Assembly: GCA_905250025.1 (NCBI GenBank)
Contig: CAJNOJ010000056.1
Location: 248,001 to 312,000 of the forward strand
Direction of reading: 5' to 3'
DNA from: Adineta ricciae
Lineage: Eukaryota > Rotifera > Eurotatoria > Adinetida > Adinetidae
Length of the DNA stretch: 64,000 nucleotides
The translations under genes and the position numbers were made by a program. The notes beneath the pieces are model-generated. The model was not told where the DNA came from. It saw only the letters and a program-made list of their open reading frames with translations, and searched no databases. Shown piece after piece: positions 52,136 through 62,984 of the stretch; positions within the stretch are counted from its first letter, which is position 1; each line of letters starts with the position of its first letter.

Positions 52136-53626
52136 ATGTCTCGTATAATTCGAAGTATGAGTCTTCTCCTATTCATCCTTCTTCTCAATGGTGTTATACA
52201 AATCGAAGCAGCACCAACGTCTGACTTAGGACAGTTTTTGAATAAAGTAGGTGATAAAATCTCTCAAACGGCAGCAACGATCAAGGACTATCTTTTGGAA
52301 CTTTTCTACCGTTTTCGAGCATTCTTCATGGGACATTCAGAGGCGACTCATCATGAAACGACTTCACGCGGATGTGGCTATGCTACAGATAACGAACCGG
52401 CTATTTATCACAAACAAGCAGCTGTTGTTTCAAAAATCAGAGGTGGCGATAGTGCTATTTGGCATACATGGTATGAATTCAATGCAAGGAGATTATCATT
52501 CATGACGAATATCTTCTTTTTATAGGCCATGGATGGTATCATTGTTTACCAGTCCTCGTCAAGGTTGGAGTTGTGCAGGTGTACTTATCAATGAAAATAC
52601 TGTCCTAACTGCTGCACATTGTCTGACACAAACAACAGCAAGCGAAATGAAAGCAATCATCGGTGTGCATTCAATACTTGGTAAACTAAATCCAATGAAT
52701 TACTATTCGATAAGTGCCATACATCGTCATCCGAAATTCGAAAATTGCTGTAAAAACGATCTAGCGATACTTAAATTAACAAAGTCCGTTCTTTACGGAC
52801 CGAGAATCAATTCGGTTTGTTTACCTTATCAACCCTATGCAACTATTGGTCAAGGAAAAGATCTCGTTAATCGCACTGGTACTATCATCGGATGGGGTGA
52901 TAGTTCGCAAAATAGCATAACCAATACGTTTAAAAGTTTCACTTTACAACAAGGTAAATCATTGTCGTGAAATAGATCCTATCGATAATCGAATTTTACC
53001 GGCTTGTCTTTCAACAATCGAAGATAAGGAAATTAATCTTCGAGTACGACATTGAAGTATCCGATAACATCGAATGAGAAAGACTGACAAGTAAACACCA
53101 ATGAAAAGAACGTGAATATGACATCAGGGGAGAAAGTATCTTTGGCGAATTGATCGTGATGACAAGTTTCCTTCTATATCAAGTTTATTTCATCAGTGTT
53201 TATCATGAATGAAAAAGGTCACAAGGATGACCCCTTATTGACGGATAACATCTGAATATGCTTTTGATAATCGAAGTTGATCTGTCTTTCTTTTCAGCTG
53301 AAGTCCGTGTATTCGATGACTATCATTGTCGTCGTGCTTATGGCAGTGTTTTCGATCCCAATACAGAAATCTGTGCCGGTGATTACAATCAATTAGCTGA
53401 TACGATGGTAAGCCGAAATTGAAAGAGAATCCGTTATCTAGATGCACAAGTGTTTCAGAGTGGTGATTCCGGTGGTCCCTTACTTGTTCGTCAATCTGAT
53501 GGTCGATGGATTGTTCTTGGTATCACATCGTATGGTGCAGCAACCACTCCAAGCACGGCACCAGGTGTTTACGTTAAAATTTCAGCGTATGAGAAATGGC
53601 TTGAACCGTTCATAAAGTCAAATTGA
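52136..53626 (+). CDS. Secreted trypsin-like serine protease (S1)
   Basis: Chymotrypsin-fold protease. A signal peptide (MSLLLFILLLNGVIQIEA after MSRIIRS) and a propeptide of about 75 residues precede the activation site SKIRGGDS (cleavage before IRGG). The catalytic His is in TVLTAAHCL, the Asp in CCKNDLAILKL, and the Ser in SGDSGGPLL. The residue six before the Ser is Asp (chymotrypsin 189), implying trypsin-like Arg/Lys preference. The usual Cys191 is Met and Cys220 is also absent (GITSYGAATTPS). Introns: one short one splits HTWPWMVSL, one of about 340 bases at 52955-53297, and one short one before the Ser exon. Ends FIKSN. Confidence 0.9.
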
Positions 53627-54553
53627 ACATATACATTTGTACAAAAAAGAAAGAACTGAAGAACTTGTTTTTTGTTTGTTTTTCAACATGGTTTTTAGTC
53701 TATATTACGTTTTCATTCAATAAAAACATCACGAGACTTTGAATGCATCTAAATTTGTGATGTAGTCGTCGACTTTTATTTTTTACTCATGGAAAAAAAT
53801 AATAATCTATGTGAGAGTAATACACGTGTGATTAAAAAAAAACGGACAAACACGGAAATAAACAAAAACATTCATGTTAGAAAAGGGCACGCATGTGTGC
53901 ACACATGCAAAAGGCATAAAAGTGCGACCATCAAGAATATTTCTCGATATATATGTGTGTATATAGAGATTCTTTTGTTTTGCATAATTATCCAAATAAA
54001 TTAAAACTGGAATTATCTTCGAATCATAAGGATTGAAACGAAACACGTCCACTCATCTGACTTGACTGACATGACATATACGTAGACAAGAAGCAACATA
54101 AAACTGTATGTATTTGTGTGTGTGCGAGAGAGACTTTTTCTATGAATTTTTCCACTATATGTATTCAATACGTATAACCGATTGAATTGTTCAACATTTA
54201 ATACATCCTAATGCACAGACAGCCACTGTTACATAAACGTAAAAGAAGGAAAAAGAAAGAAAACAAAAAGAACAATTCTTTTTGCATATTGAAGAGAAAA
54301 ATTAAGAACTAAGAATTAACTATTTGTTTGTAAGATATATATGTATAAATTTGAATCGTTACATGGTTGTATATTGTTATAATATGATCATATATAGGTC
54401 GGTCCTAAGGAAAAAGAAATAGCTGTAGGACAATCGTAGATAAAACGAGATTCAACGTCACAACTGAATATTCTTCTTTAAACTTTATTTTGTCTGATTA
54501 ACGATGACTGATTTGATTACAAATGAAAGCTGACGTGATTGATTGAACTTACG
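53627..54553. other. Convergent spacer protease/syntaxin
   Basis: About 930 bases, AT-rich. Plus-strand AATAAA at 53719-53724 probably ends the protease mRNA. A minus-strand AATAAA at 54484-54489 lies about 65 bases past the last syntaxin stop. No gene supported. Confidence 0.55.
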
Positions 54554-54640
54554 CTATCTTTTAAGACCAAGCCAACCAGCAACCATGGATCCAAGGATAA
54601 CGATGATAACAGCCAAGCAGATGAGGATAATGATTTTTTT
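54554..54640 (-). other. STX1: Syntaxin-1 terminal exon alpha (membrane anchor)
   Basis: Reads [20 protein letters not shown] then AGWLGLKR and TAG. Acceptor TTTTTAG, phase 0. It is the closest of the four to the canonical syntaxin-1 anchor and the only one with an AATAAA soon downstream (54484-54489 on the minus strand). Confidence 0.88.
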
Positions 54641-57600
54641 CTAAAAACAAAGCTCTGCAATTGATGTTTCAATTCTCAATCACAAACAACGAGACAACAT
54701 ATAGGATGCAAACACAAATGCGAGCAAAATCGAATCGATCCAATGCATAGTTGGATGCTATTTTCATACATTAACTTTTCATTTTATCGAAGTGCATTGA
54801 GAACGAGACCTGTTATGATCAGTAGTAATAACGCTGAGACGATTCCAGCGACAGTGAGTAAGCAACATTTTTTCTATGACAAAAAATACGATTTGTCAGT
54901 TTTCAAGTGTTTACATCACTTTGTCCCTTGGTAATAATAACGAAACGAAGAAGGAGAACGAGGAGGAGGAGGAAAGAATGAAGAAATATAATTCAATATT
55001 CATCGGCATCGAACCGGAAGACATATGAACGACACAAAGGCAAAAGAAAAATCATATTTAATGATTTCGAGATAATGACAAATCTTCTTTTTTTTTCATA
55101 CACAACGAAAGCCTATTGATAACGACATTCATTTCCTGGTGTTTTTCACGTGACAATACAACATACACACGTATATATATAGTGAGGTGTACCTATATTT
55201 GCTTTTATCTTTATATAAATACGCGTGTAATTCAATAAACATAACAAATTAACAAGCGATGTGTGAGAGAAAAAAAAACGAGACGAGAAAAATATCGAAA
55301 TATATGAATAAGATACGAAGTCTCATGCAAACATAGACGAGAAAACAACACGAAACAGAAGCATATTAGAAATAGGACGATAGAAAGACCATGAATGTGT
55401 AAATTTGTACAAAAATCGAAAAAACGCCGCGTACTTTTTTTCTTCGTAGCGAATATAAAACAACGAATAAAGAAAAATATTGGACAAGCCGATCAACGGT
55501 CTTGGAAATGTATACATATACATATACTTCTGTGCTTTGTTTTGGAAGAAAAATCAAAAGGAGATTATCGAAAATAGAAGCTATTTCGAACGACCGAAAA
55601 CGATTGCTAAAATAATCACCAATATAATGAGGACGCCAGCAACAATCCCAATAATAATAAATAATTTCTTGAAAATGAAAAGAAAAAGACAAAAGGAAGT
55701 TTTGTACATGATAGATAACAGTTTCTCGTGTGCTTAGATATGTGTATGAATATGTAGCCATGCCGTTAGTATGTCAGAGCGTATTGTATATGTGTGTAGA
55801 TTTCGTCTAACTATCGTTTTCCTGGAGTTGCAGTAACTGCTGACGAATTGTCAGTAGTTTTACTTTTAACCACGAAATAAATGACAATTATGAGAATAAT
55901 AATGATGACTGTTACAATCAGGCAAATGATAAGCAGAATTTTTTTCTAAATAAGATTAATGATATAGATTGTTGATGACAAATGACTAGTAACCCAAATT
56001 GATCAGTTAAATCATGAATAATAGATGAGCGTAGATACGTTAGAATAAATCAAATGAGAAGAGCGCGTTAAATTAGTAGTATGAACAAGCAACAAAGCGT
56101 ATTTACGTGTTAGAGTAAAGCGGATAGACCCGAAGAACCATGCAGTTTTACAAACACATTCAACTACTCTACGAAGATGAACACTTACCCGTCGGGCGGC
56201 ACTCTGGAATTTAACAGCTTTTTTCGTATCTGTACTAGCAGCCTTGACGAAATTTTCTGATTGTACAACATTGTATTCGATTCGATCAATCATTTCACCC
56301 TTAAATACAATGTCGATTGTTGATGACATCATCAGGAAAGAAAGATATACCTGTGTTTGAACAAGTGCAGCCATATCAATAAACATATCGTGTAGTTCTT
56401 TGATACTCTTTTCTAATTTCATAATATCACCATGGCGAGCTTCAATATCTGCTAAGGATTGTTTAGCTTGTGCTGTTTCGACCATAATCTACAGTACAAA
56501 AGTAGGACAGTCGATGCTAGTCGTCAAATTCGTAAGCACTTACGCCTTGTGTAAACACTGCTGGATTACCTGATTCCAACATTTCTTCTACTTCTCCTTC
56601 AGTTACTGATCTTCCGGCTAAATACATCAAATTTAGTTAAATTCATCCGTTCTTGCTTGGTTCGTTTTCGGACAACAATTATTAAAGCAAAGAATAAGAA
56701 AATATGAGCTCACTGATCTCAAGCTGTCGCTGTATTCTCTCTTTGCACTTTTGTCGGTAACCCAACTGAACTTGATTATAATCGTTCATCACATCACGAA
56801 ATGTTCGTGTTAATACACATAACTACAACATAAATGCAAAACAACATCGAAAGCATGAACATACAATACATAAACAAAAACAAAGACTTTGCAGAATCGA
56901 AAGGAAAGAATTTCGAAAACTCACTCAATTCGATTTGTTTTCTTAACTTTCTTTTACTTTCTTCGAGATAATTTCGTTTAGCGAGATGATAATCAGTCAT
57001 AATTTGATTGAATCTTTTCAAATTATGATGCAACTAACAAAGATAAATATACAACGAGACAGACAAGTCAACATCGAAAAGCATATAGATATTTGACACG
57101 ACACAATAGGTAGAGTTCCTCACTGATCTCAAGTTGACGTTGAATACGAGCTTTACATCGCTCTCGATATTCAATCTCAGCATTTCGATATGAATTCATC
57201 ACATCGATGAATTTACGTGATAATGTCGCATGCTAAACGAGGAAAAACAATCGGTTATATCTCAAAATCTTGTCCAAACAAAGGCGAATATATGAAACAT
57301 CGAACAAGAGAGGGGAAGATTTGCAATATGTCGTATCGACTTGTTGGTTTCAAATTGATCTGTATATACTACCTGTGATTTTTCGATTCGTAATTGTGCT
57401 TGAGTTTTGCTCGACGATGTCTGAGATTGCTCTTGACTTTGTTCCATTTCTGTAAGAAGAAGGGGGGAAACAACAAAGAATAATGTCACAAGACAACAAC
57501 GAAAATGAAAAGAAATAATAGGGAAACAACACCGAAACTGACTACAGATATAGAAACAACACCTGTGTTTTTCGTATGCGGATATCGGCCGTACGCCAAG

Positions 57601-58086
57601 CATTTTCAGTTCCTTCTTGTTCTAGTTCAGTTTCCATAGCTAAAAGTTCGTTTTGTCAAAAGTCGGATCAAGAAATTTCGTCGTCTCGTCGAACTTCAAC
57701 TCTTTTTTTTTCTTCGGGATCACTTACCTTTCAATTTTTGTCGAACACCATTCGCCAATTTTTTGATATCGGCCATTTTTTCTTCGAGCTCTTCTTTCGT
57801 CCGATCATCGGCTTGTGGTGCCGCGAGAATCGTGGAATGAAGACGTTTGACTTCATCCACTAATTCACTTATTTTATCGATGTTCGTACGCAGTGAATCG
57901 ACATGAGCAAAAAAGTCGGACATGAACCGACTGTTATCTTCCATATTGATAGCAACATAGGCAGCATCAGGATCGCTGTCCTCAGTATTCTGAGCCTAAA
58001 AGTGATATTTTTTTCGAAAAAAACAATTTCTCCTTGAAGGCAAATTCACTCACCGCCCGTAAAGCGGGCAATCGATCTTTCGTCAT
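54554..58086 (-). CDS. STX1: Syntaxin-1 with three sets of alternative exons
   Basis: Plasma-membrane Qa-SNARE for regulated exocytosis. Starts [11 protein letters not shown] (58054-58086), then the Habc domain ([35 protein letters not shown]). Next are two versions of a linker exon (about 57560-57637 and 57372-57449; in phase 1, out phase 0). Then three versions of the Hc-helix exon (about 57126-57231, 56930-57031 and 56719-56821; in phase 0, out phase 1). Constant exons give [20 protein letters not shown], the SNARE motif ([20 protein letters not shown], zero-layer Gln in [14 protein letters not shown]) and [10 protein letters not shown] ending at 56189. Four terminal exons follow, all phase 0, each a complete transmembrane anchor with its own stop. 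Potentially 24 isoforms. A second syntaxin lies upstream. Confidence 0.9.
54784..54873 (-). other. STX1: Syntaxin-1 terminal exon beta (membrane anchor)
   Basis: Reads [20 protein letters not shown] then TGLVLNALR and TAA. Acceptor GTCATAG, phase 0. Two cysteines next to the membrane edge could be palmitoylated. Confidence 0.86.
55581..55667 (-). other. STX1: Syntaxin-1 terminal exon gamma (membrane anchor)
   Basis: Reads [20 protein letters not shown] then AIVFGRSK and TAG. Acceptor TTTTCAAG, phase 0. One lysine instead of two follows the shared ARR. Confidence 0.86.
55811..55945 (-). other. STX1: Syntaxin-1 terminal exon delta (anchor plus luminal tail)
   Basis: Reads [20 protein letters not shown] then VIYFVVKSK and a polar tail ([15 protein letters not shown]), TAG. 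Acceptor TTATTTAG, phase 0. It adds about 18 residues after the membrane span, longer than the usual syntaxin end. It is nearest to the last constant exon. Confidence 0.87.
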
Positions 58087-59369: not shown

Positions 59370-61011
59370 TCATTTGCCTAATAATTTTCTTTGAGTTGTG
59401 AAATAAGCAGCGAGGATCAAGAGAAGAATAAGAACAACAGCAATTAAAATGACACACACGACGATTTTTTTCTAAATAGAAAACGAGAGATTTTTCTTCG
59501 GATTCATTTCTACCTACTTTCATAACTGATTTGTGAGCTTCTTGTGCAATGTAGACTTGCTCAACGGCATCATTGACATAATCGGTAGCTTTGGAGACAC
59601 TATGTTCAATGTTATCAATCATTTCACCCTTTGAATGGAGAAATGTGACAAGTACAATCAATTGAATGATTCGACAAACATCTCCGATGTCCTCTCTACC
59701 TGAGTTGCAACGAGTTGAGCTAAATCAATGAACATGTCGTGCAATTCTTTGATGGAATTTTCGAGTTTCGTTATATCGCGCTGACGTGCTTCAATTTCAT
59801 TGACAGCCTGCTTAGCTTTTTCAATATCGACCATAATCTGAAGTACAAAGTCCTTATCGACTAAAGAAGACGGCAACAATGTTAATTTTACCGAGAAGTT
59901 AAATGTTCCTGGGAAACCATGCTCAAGCATTTCTTCTAGTTCATCATTAGTTCGCCGATTACCAGCTTAAAAAGGTGAATGAAACGAGCGTTCTTGTAAT
60001 CATTCGAAGTCTTTCTCACTTATTTCGAGTTCACGAACGATCGCTCGTTTACATCGTTCTCGATGCAAAACAAACTCTTGGTTATATACATTCATAACTT
60101 CACGGAAACGTCGGGTGATATTGAATATTTGTGTTTCCTTAATACGCCAAACAGCATTGGCTTTATCAGCTTCGGGAAGATCTTCTTGAATCTTTTCCAT
60201 TTCTAAGAATCCGAAGGTCTATGCGACAGCAAAGGAAAATGGGTTTCTGTACTTTTCAGTTTTGCTGAAACATCGTACGATAACTTTTTTATATCAGCCG
60301 TTTTATCATCGAGTTCCTGTGCGAGTTCTATCAAAGGAAAACACAAATACAGTAACATTGTCTTCTTCTGATAGTGAAAGGGAATTTTTACTCGAATCGG
60401 CCATAGGTTCAAGCATTTTACTATGAATTTGACGAACATTTTCTGCATCTTCTTCGATTTTATCGATAAGTAGACGAATTAGATCAATCTGAATGAAAAT
60501 TTTCACTATCACAATTCGATCCAAAGCATTCATGCTCACTTACTTGAGTTAAAAATTCTGCCACATTGTAGTCCTTATCTATATCGATAGCAGTAAGCTG
60601 CATAGCACCATCGTTAGCAGCATTTGGTAAATCCGAGCTTCGAAGCTATTATGAACAAAAGAACAACATGGTTGAAAGTTGCTTGCAACTGAACAATGTC
60701 CTGCTACATAAAATACAGATAGAATACAGCAAAGCTATAGACATGCATAAACGAGAACAAAACAAGAACACACGATTAGATCACTCGCCCTCGGTTTTAT
60801 AATATTATTTTTTCGTCTAAACTCTGAGCATTAGTTTTTCGTAGATGATTAAGCGTATTTATACTTGTCGAGAGAATCTTCGATGCGATCCACGTGCCCA
60901 TGGACTCTTGAAAATATAAAAGAACAATAGCTATAAAAAAAAAGAAAGAGTATGTTTTGAGTGATGAAAACTTACAGTTTTTTGCAAATCTTTCAATCTA
61001 TCTTTCGTCAT
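59370..61011 (-). CDS. Second syntaxin (syntaxin-1-like Qa-SNARE)
   Basis: Starts MTKDRLKDLQKT at 61011. Exons give LRSSDLPNAANDGAMQLTAI, IDLIRLLIDKIEEDAENVRQ (Habc), the linker MEKIQEDLPEADKANAVWRI with FREVMNVYNQEFVLHRERCK, RRTNDELEEMLEHGFPGTFN, and the SNARE motif (IEARQRDITKLENSIKELHD, zero-layer Gln in VATQGEMIDNIEHS). One anchor exon reads KKIVVCVILIAVVLILLLIL then AAYFTTQRKLLGK. Only one copy of each exon was found, unlike its neighbour. It is more diverged, so may be specialised. Tandem duplication with the gene at 54554-58086. A possible 42-base cassette exon sits in the first intron (60865-60906). Confidence 0.88.
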
Positions 61012-62984
61012 TGATCAACGATTAGGTGATCACGAATATCACAAACATAATTTGTTTTCAGTTTGGAAGTGATTCAAGTACGAACAAGAGTATTTGATTT
61101 TTGGTTCTGCGCTACATGATGTTTATTACACTTAATTTTTAATACCAACGTCTAATTGGTGATTCATTGATGATTCTACTCCATCGACCAATCTTACTAT
61201 TGCAATAAAAAAAGCACACCAATGAATAGATGGCGTACCTTTATCCTACCTGGTCTACCATAACTGAATTGAAAAGAGGTATAACGACTGGATCTTTGTC
61301 ACATTCAATCAACAACAATGTTCATAGGATGTTTATTACACTGCAAATGTAGTTTTATTAAAGAAAAAGATTTTTGAATATTTCTCTAAGATATTCTGTG
61401 TCACAAGAAATATATGCAGAAGTAATGCGAGTGAAAACATGCGACATAGGATTAACTTATATGAAAAGATAATTAATATTGATCTCATAATTAAGTGTGA
61501 CTATATGAGTAGTCTTTTTTTGTTCTTTTTCTATTGAAAATTCTGCTCTCGTGTATTTTAATTATGTTTGTCGGGAATTGATTAACTACCTTGTTCGACA
61601 ATAGTCCAAACATCAATATAATTTATTGTTCCGAGAAAGCATAAAATGAGACTATTCAGTTACGATCTTAATCACAATCGTTCGACAACATCCATTCGAT
61701 GATCCACAGGTAGAGTTAACATGAAATTCAGAAACAATATGTTTTTTTTCACTACACTATCAACAAAAGAATATTCTTTTTGCATCCGTTTTTATCGTTT
61801 CTGTGCATCATGATGACAAAAACAAGAATTGTATTATAAAAGATCTTACATATATCATGCTTTCTTCTAAGCTTTACCCGTGTCTACATATTACAAATGC
61901 TATCACAACTCTCATTACGGTCATAGAATAATTACTGAGTAAGTATTCATTTAGTAAAATATGTTTTCGTTGATATATCGACGGACTATGATTTGTAATT
62001 CATATTAGCAGCTTAGCCGTATACGATCGTTAGAATAAAGTTTACTCTGTAAATACAAATATTGACTGCGGAATAATAATGGAATATAAGTAGAAACCTG
62101 GTTTCGCTAGTCGTGTGAAACCAACCCAATCTAACAAAAATAAATTGTGAATTAGAAAAATGTCACAAACGGGCTTTCTCTTTCTACCAGATCTAGTGCT
62201 GTGTAAAAAAAAATGAAGAGTGCGTCATTGTTGCAGTCAGCTAATGAATAATTTTCTTCTGAAAGAAAATAACTACGTTTTCTTTTCACACTTCTTACAA
62301 TCTGAAAAGAAAATCATATAAAGAAACATGTAATAGTATGTCGATCGGTGGATATCATTGGTTTTTGTCTTGCACTTCATGTCTTGTCATGCAGAACATA
62401 CACATTAATAGCTATAGATGCTAAACAGGCTTTTCTCGATCAATTAGTATAAAATACGCAGTGTTCTTTTAACTATCAACTTCAACATCTTCATCTTGGA
62501 ATGTTTTGAAGGTTTTGTGAACATCGACGACGTGCTGTAGTTTAGTATGATTTATAGACAGTCGATTTTGTAATAATAACATTTTCATACTTAATGAGGT
62601 TTGGTATAAAAAGATTTTTCGCATTCTTTCCTAAATCATTTTTTCTGGTCTTTAAATGATCACTTGAGCGTTGAACATGAAGAACTGACATTATATTTAT
62701 ATCTCTTTTGAACAAACTGACGTAAGGAAGATCTTCGTATATATATCCATTCTCCCTTTCTCTGCCACTTGTCATTACAATACATTTCTAGTCAACAGCA
62801 TACTTCAACAAAGATTTCGTCATGAATATGTATGTGATTTCCAACCTTCTTATGTCGAGTCATTAGCAAAAGCAGACTAATTTTCTTTTTTGCCAAGTCA
62901 TGCTGATGAGAAATAGATTCGTATCTGAGAAAAATAAAAGTTTGACAATAGCATTCCTACAACTTTCTTTTCTCGTCAACAGAT
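61012..62984. other. Divergent intergenic region syntaxin/TRPA
   Basis: About 2 kb, AT-rich. A 15-base string GATGTTTATTACACT occurs twice, near 61118 and 61328. Open frames here (for example the minus-strand one at 62542-62775) have no recognisable family. No gene supported. Confidence 0.45.

Follow-up and report, generated by a model that had tools for sequence, protein, structure and literature searches.

The exon anatomy of a syntaxin-1 gene in the bdelloid rotifer Adineta ricciae, its conservation between gene copies and the switching of anchors in transcript-like contigs together suggest that this is a working syntaxin-1 gene in which regulated alternative splicing would generate two protein bodies with several anchors, a reading that we consider probable. 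Syntaxin-1 fuses vesicles with the cell membrane and is commonly regarded as one protein with minor anchor variants. In the model that we propose, (i) each transcript would select one connector between helices Hb and Hc of the Habc domain, one Hc helix and one membrane anchor, (ii) connector L1, helix H1 and anchor T4 would be the canonical versions and would probably make up the neuronal syntaxin-1 body, (iii) L2 and H3 would form a second body, the one met in public transcript-like contigs, and (iv) several anchors would probably be available to complete either body. The realised output would probably be about two bodies with three or four anchors rather than 24 isoforms.

The gene occupies minus-strand positions 58086-54554 of the window, the stretch of 64,000 nt of genomic DNA that was analysed, and this copy is referred to as C56. 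Its product is identified as syntaxin-1 by its best match to a solved structure, syntaxin-1A 3c98_B (E 1.7e-93, query residues 3-273 of 298), and by the two Pfam domains that score above the cut-off in the A. ricciae isoform P0004, PF00804 Syntaxin (Habc) with 134.1 bits and PF05739 SNARE with 55.9 bits. The exons, all on the minus strand, follow in the order E1, E2, L1, L2, H1, H2, H3, X6, S7, S8, T1, T2, T3, T4, i.e. two constant first exons, a 77-nt pair, a 109-nt trio, three constant exons and four terminal exons. E1 (58054..58086) carries the start codon and encodes a peptide that is identical in the two further copies of the gene, C74 and C66; E2 (57728..57995) encodes the N-terminal part, helix Ha and most of Hb; X6 (56544..56617) encodes the interdomain linker helix, S7 (56351..56488) the first part of the SNARE motif and S8 (56189..56299) its second part as far as the membrane. 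The exons for Ha/Hb and for the SNARE motif are single, in line with the once-only core proposed in a first-pass annotation of this DNA. The span given there, 54554..57640, holds all the alternatives but stops short of E1 and E2, with which the gene extends to 58086.

That annotation described one syntaxin-1 gene with two, three and four alternative exons of matching phases, and all nine are indeed present and open, with splice signals. The Hb-Hc connectors L1 (57563..57639; canonical) and L2 (57373..57449; alternative) both have 77 nt and phase 1 to 0. The Hc-helix exons H1 (57124..57232; canonical), H2 (56925..57033; a third version, present in C56 and C74) and H3 (56714..56822; alternative) all have 109 nt and phase 0 to 1. 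The terminal anchors T1 (55811..55945; with a longer polar tail), T2 (55581..55667; KLFIIIGI...), T3 (54784..54873; KKCCLL...) and T4 (54554..54640; canonical type, ...GSMVAGWLG) run from phase 0 to a stop and have a mean Kyte-Doolittle value of 2.67-3.95 over 20 residues. AG precedes all nine alternative exons and GT follows every L and H exon. Similarity between copies exceeds that of shuffled sequences by 6.0 SD for L1/L2, 6.3 SD for H1/H2, 13.6 SD for H1/H3 and 8.1 SD for H2/H3, H2 being the most divergent H copy, and none of 5000 shuffles reached the observed score for any of these four pairs. A scan for anchors returned exactly the four T exons on the sense strand and none on the antisense strand; 200 dinucleotide shuffles gave a mean of 0.075 and a maximum of one, and of 60 control tiles taken from the window, two gave a single anchor. 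Chance origin of the L, H and T exon sets is excluded by these shuffle tests.

The first-pass annotation argued from the reading frame that exons are chosen one at a time. For a single position this holds, since two copies of the same set together break the frame (77 mod 3 = 2; 109 mod 3 = 1); for the two positions jointly it fails, because 77 + 109 = 186 and joint skipping of one L and one H exon would preserve the downstream frame. No product of such joint skipping was found among the matches listed that are transcript-like bdelloid contigs (0 of 17).

These contigs come from three protein searches, the best 120 matches of each yielding 170 different proteins, of which 65 were classed as bdelloid from their names or their similarity. 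Among the 65, 17 derive from contigs (jgi or lgn) 938-1424 nt long, which we take to be cDNA because they are too short for the unspliced gene. Every one of the 17 listed carries one L and one H segment, always of the L2 and H3 types, and none is attributed to A. ricciae. Their anchors are of T1 type in three, of T2 type in six and of T4 type in four, ambiguous in two (one possibly T1-type, one possibly T2-type) and absent in two. The first 273 residues of P0044 and P0049 are the same, after which P0044 continues with T4 and P0049 with T2; P0043 and P0050 show a single residue difference ahead of the anchor and end in unlike anchors. Anchor switching is in this way supported by the transcript-like contigs, with the caveat that assembly of short reads may attach an anchor to the wrong body. 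L1, H1, H2 and T3 occur in 0 of these 17 listed contigs, so that use of L1 and H1 is suggested by conservation and by gene models, and the association of L2 with H3 is inseparable from both merely being common; a coupled choice of L and H would be compatible with it.

The 48 bdelloid gene models combine L1 with H1 in nine cases, L2 with H3 in 19, L2 with H1 in 11 and L1 with H3 in one. The remaining models either fuse both L exons (P0011, P0021, P0046, P0063) or run H1 into H3 (P0015, P0024, P0027, P0030), four of each, and we read these as annotation artefacts. The first-pass annotation envisaged up to 24 freely combined isoforms. That all 24 combinations of two connectors, three Hc helices and four anchors are made would agree with the splice phases, which permit every one of them, with the four pairings in the gene models and with the three anchor types found together with L2-H3. 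The uniform L2-H3 content of the transcript-like contigs and the lack of L1, H1, H2 and T3 from them argue against it, as does the finding that H2 was the best match of 0 of the 65 classified bdelloid proteins, though one search query had carried H2 and T3; we regard free combination as unlikely.

Three copies of the gene were found in the genome among the scored search candidates. C74 is 96-100% identical to C56 across exons (98.0% overall) and keeps all nine alternatives. C66 is an old homeolog near silent-site saturation, with a dS of 1.70 in the constant exons relative to C56; it carries L1, L2, H1, H3, T1, T2 and T4, i.e. a 2 x 2 x 3 set, open and in the same phases, and H2 and T3 were looked for in it and not found. 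The first-pass annotation had named related species as the place where unused copies would show accumulating stops. Seven of the nine alternatives are open in C66, and gene models of Rotaria and Didymodactylos contain the same exon kinds. P0004 has a connector that matches the C74 version, and the L2 and H3 segments of another A. ricciae protein, P0062, are those of C66. In a tree of the constant region built from 22 rows, P0062 groups with a Rotaria protein (91/76) and P0004 with a bdelloid contig (90/78); these groupings, of moderate support, fit a homeolog split older than Adineta and Rotaria. Tree building gave no identity for the protein P0137; P0121 lies on a long branch beside the bdelloids and is perhaps from another rotifer.

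Between C56 and C66 the constant exons have a dN/dS of 0.02 and L1+H1 of 0.03, the H1 protein being identical across C56, C74 and C66, and T4 shows one nonsynonymous change in about 64 sites. L2+H3 have a dS of 0.77 and a dN/dS of 0.34, and T1+T2 a dS of 1.69 and a dN/dS of 0.25. These rates suggest that the canonical L1, H1 and T4 are nearly frozen and that L2, H3, T1 and T2 drift faster under constraint. The faster evolution of the latter four would also be expected if the extra exons were pseudoexons left by local duplication and a single isoform were made. L2+H3 and T1+T2 have, however, stayed open at these silent distances and with dN/dS ratios of this order, and it is the L2, H3, T1 and T2 types that occur in the transcript-like contigs, from which L1 and H1 are absent, which contradicts this explanation if the contigs are bdelloid mRNA. 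We consider the pseudoexon explanation highly improbable.

H2 and T3 stand apart from the other alternatives. For these two the sole comparison is C56 with C74, in which three silent and two replacement changes say little. Possibly L1/L2, H1/H3 and T1/T2/T4 are functional and H2 and T3 are young or decaying exons of minor importance, as the lack of detectable H2 and T3 in C66, the divergence of H2 among the H copies and the lack of transcript-like contigs with either exon would suggest. Yet both exons are open with intact splice sites in C56 and in C74, H2 retains its similarity to H3, and a T3-like anchor in the Didymodactylos gene model P0065 indicates that T3 could be an old exon that C66 has lost. 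We give this mixed state a substantial chance, if somewhat short of even, and it is compatible with the preferred model of two bodies with several anchors.

To place the alternatives in the protein, the 3c98 alignment was combined with a predicted structure of P0004 (mean pLDDT 76.6, pTM 0.46; alignment of 44 of the 170 proteins), in which helices span residues 29-69, 75-111, 117-163, 169-177 and 181-296. Residues 101-126, encoded by the L exon, comprise the last part of Hb, the loop between Hb and Hc and the first part of Hc; the H exon (residues 127-162) corresponds to Hc. The pair of phase 1 to 0 had been called linker exons in the first-pass annotation; it encodes the Hb-Hc connector, and the interdomain linker is the constant X6. 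Because the linker helix sits in X6, exon choice affects the Habc domain and the anchor and leaves the interdomain linker as it is. The proposal that the isoforms differ in closed-state control and in anchoring stands in so far as the anchor and the Habc domain vary; the linker residues known to control the closed state, L165/E166 in mammals, fall in constant X6. The Hc helix faces Munc18 in the closed form of syntaxin. From known syntaxin biology, exchange of the connector and of Hc is expected to change the face that the closed form presents to Munc18 and may affect Munc18 binding, and a swapped anchor should alter membrane placement with SNARE pairing unchanged; the bodies may also differ in their tissue roles. 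A search of the genome for the Sec1/Munc18 family gave 36 matches.

We suggest that exon choice would be regulated by conserved intron sequences. Introns of C56 and C66 were compared using 100 dinucleotide shuffles each, with splice sites trimmed and 120 non-homologous intron pairs as controls, the best of which had a z of 4.2 and four of which reached a z of 3. Three of the 12 homologous comparisons exceeded all 120 controls: intron L2-H1 (57233..57372, minus strand; z 5.4), intron S8-T1 before the anchor exons (55946..56188, minus strand; z 6.1) and the T2-T4 stretch (z 5.9), the first two being candidate splicing-control sequences. L1-L2 (z 3.8) and H1-H2 (z 2.0) stay below the best control; of the further introns that touch alternative exons, E2-L1 (z 0.9), H3-X6 (1.8), H2-H3 (0.1) and T1-T2 (-0.6) are not conserved, and E1-E2, X6-S7 and S7-S8 show no homeolog conservation (z 1.8 or less). 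An apparent conservation of T1-T2 in simple shuffles was lost under dinucleotide shuffles with trimmed splice sites. Between T2 and T3/T4, a stretch at 54975-55049 of the window (minus strand), matching L037 8205-8275, is conserved between the homeologs; it has no obvious reading frame and may be 3'UTR or control sequence.

The donor of L1 differs from GTAAGT in each of the three copies (GTGTTG, GTGTCA and GTTTCT, the first being that of C56) and that of L2 is GTAGTA in 3/3, a pattern that fits L2 as the default choice. A single ATTAAA at 55062 and a single AATAAA at 54489 fit two candidate polyadenylation units, T1/T2 and T3/T4. An enrichment of the UGU-rich CELF motif was considered as well: TGTTGT, chosen by eye, occurs 11 times on the sense strand of the gene against 2.4 expected from shuffles and 0 times on the antisense strand, but similar densities occur elsewhere in the window, where 8 of 100 overlapping 3550-nt stretches reach 11 and 12 of 535 stretches of 629 nt reach 7, and the motif is a weak lead at most.

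Alternative anchors of syntaxin-1 have been described in Caenorhabditis elegans, in which UNC-75/CELF switches unc-64 between two anchors encoded by exons 8a and 8b (PMC4946901). That study gives UNC-64A as the main neuronal form and notes a disagreement with another study over the locomotion isoform (PMC4946901). As in the bdelloid gene, alternative terminal exons of one syntaxin-1 gene give different anchors, with the choice in unc-64 under neuronal splicing control (PMC4946901); the choice described there is that of the anchor, whereas the bdelloid gene adds alternatives in the Habc domain and four anchor exons. Exon 5a/5b of SNAP-25 (PMC2581893) is likewise a mutually exclusive duplicated exon in a SNARE protein but concerns another protein, one position and two copies.

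The first-pass annotation knew of no comparable combinatorial arrangement, a view that the protein isoforms of other animals contradict. Six RefSeq isoforms of Lineus longissimus (X2, X4-X8) differ from one another in Hc, in the C-terminal half of the SNARE motif and in the anchor; they resemble the bdelloid gene in swapping the same Hc segment (HATLSRKF... vs YSTISRKF...), in having at least four anchors and in varying three positions, and differ in that the second half of the SNARE motif varies instead of the Hb-Hc connector. This swap in Lineus (P0073, P0074, P0078, P0081, P0084, P0107) could alter SNARE pairing. In the scallops Mizuhopecten and Argopecten, Hc is the sole difference between isoforms X1 and X2. 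These lophotrochozoan swaps were deduced from protein isoforms, not from exon maps. Bdelloid H3 scores nearer the first lophotrochozoan Hc form and C66 H3 nearer the second (YSTISRKF), so the scores are ambiguous as to orthology of bdelloid H3 with the second form. Syntaxin-1A isoforms of Daphnia, Coccinella and Anopheles place two anchors on one body, and those seen lack the Hc or connector swap of the bdelloid gene. Finally, 19 jgi/lgn contig proteins from an animal, between P0128 and P0166, share near-identical N-terminal 100 residues; like the bdelloid gene they have two Hb-Hc connectors and at least four anchors, though paralogs may be included, and unlike it they have two versions of the C-terminal SNARE part, small linker-segment differences and one Hc version. 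They would represent another combinatorial syntaxin-1, possibly as rich as the bdelloid one. In searches of the open-licence PMC literature, the entries listed gave no account of a swap of Hc or of the connector in syntaxin-1, which is weak evidence of absence. The bdelloid arrangement is an elaborate version of a known design, with related swaps annotated in other animals.

Both in the bdelloid gene and among the isoforms seen in the nemertean and the scallops, Hc is exchanged and the beginning of the SNARE motif stays the same. Such genes offer a natural test of how the identity of the Habc domain bears on Munc18 binding and on the closed state, and of the reasons why the anchor sequence is important, and an almost invariant canonical body beside a drifting alternative in two old copies makes their roles separable by comparison. 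More speculatively, and with considerable doubt, one gene may encode two separately evolving bodies, a frozen L1-H1 and a fast L2-H3, through a coupled choice of neighbouring exons mediated by conserved introns and with several anchors each; this arrangement would be older than the homeolog and the Adineta-Rotaria splits and part of an as yet undescribed splicing code that acts at fixed positions of syntaxin-1 across protostomes.

Upstream of the gene, at 59385-61012 of the window on the minus strand, lies a more divergent tandem syntaxin-1-like gene, in which the open stretches listed comprise a single version each of the connector, Hc and the anchor. The genome search gave matching hits to it in both C74 and C66, and gene models P0001, P0002 and P0009 (A. 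steineri, Rotaria) join it to the syntaxin-1 gene, which we read as annotation artefacts; because of these hits and the fused models the tandem pair looks old. On the other side, the terminal part of a gene for a trypsin-like protease (Pfam PF00089) lies at 53423-53626 of the window on the plus strand.
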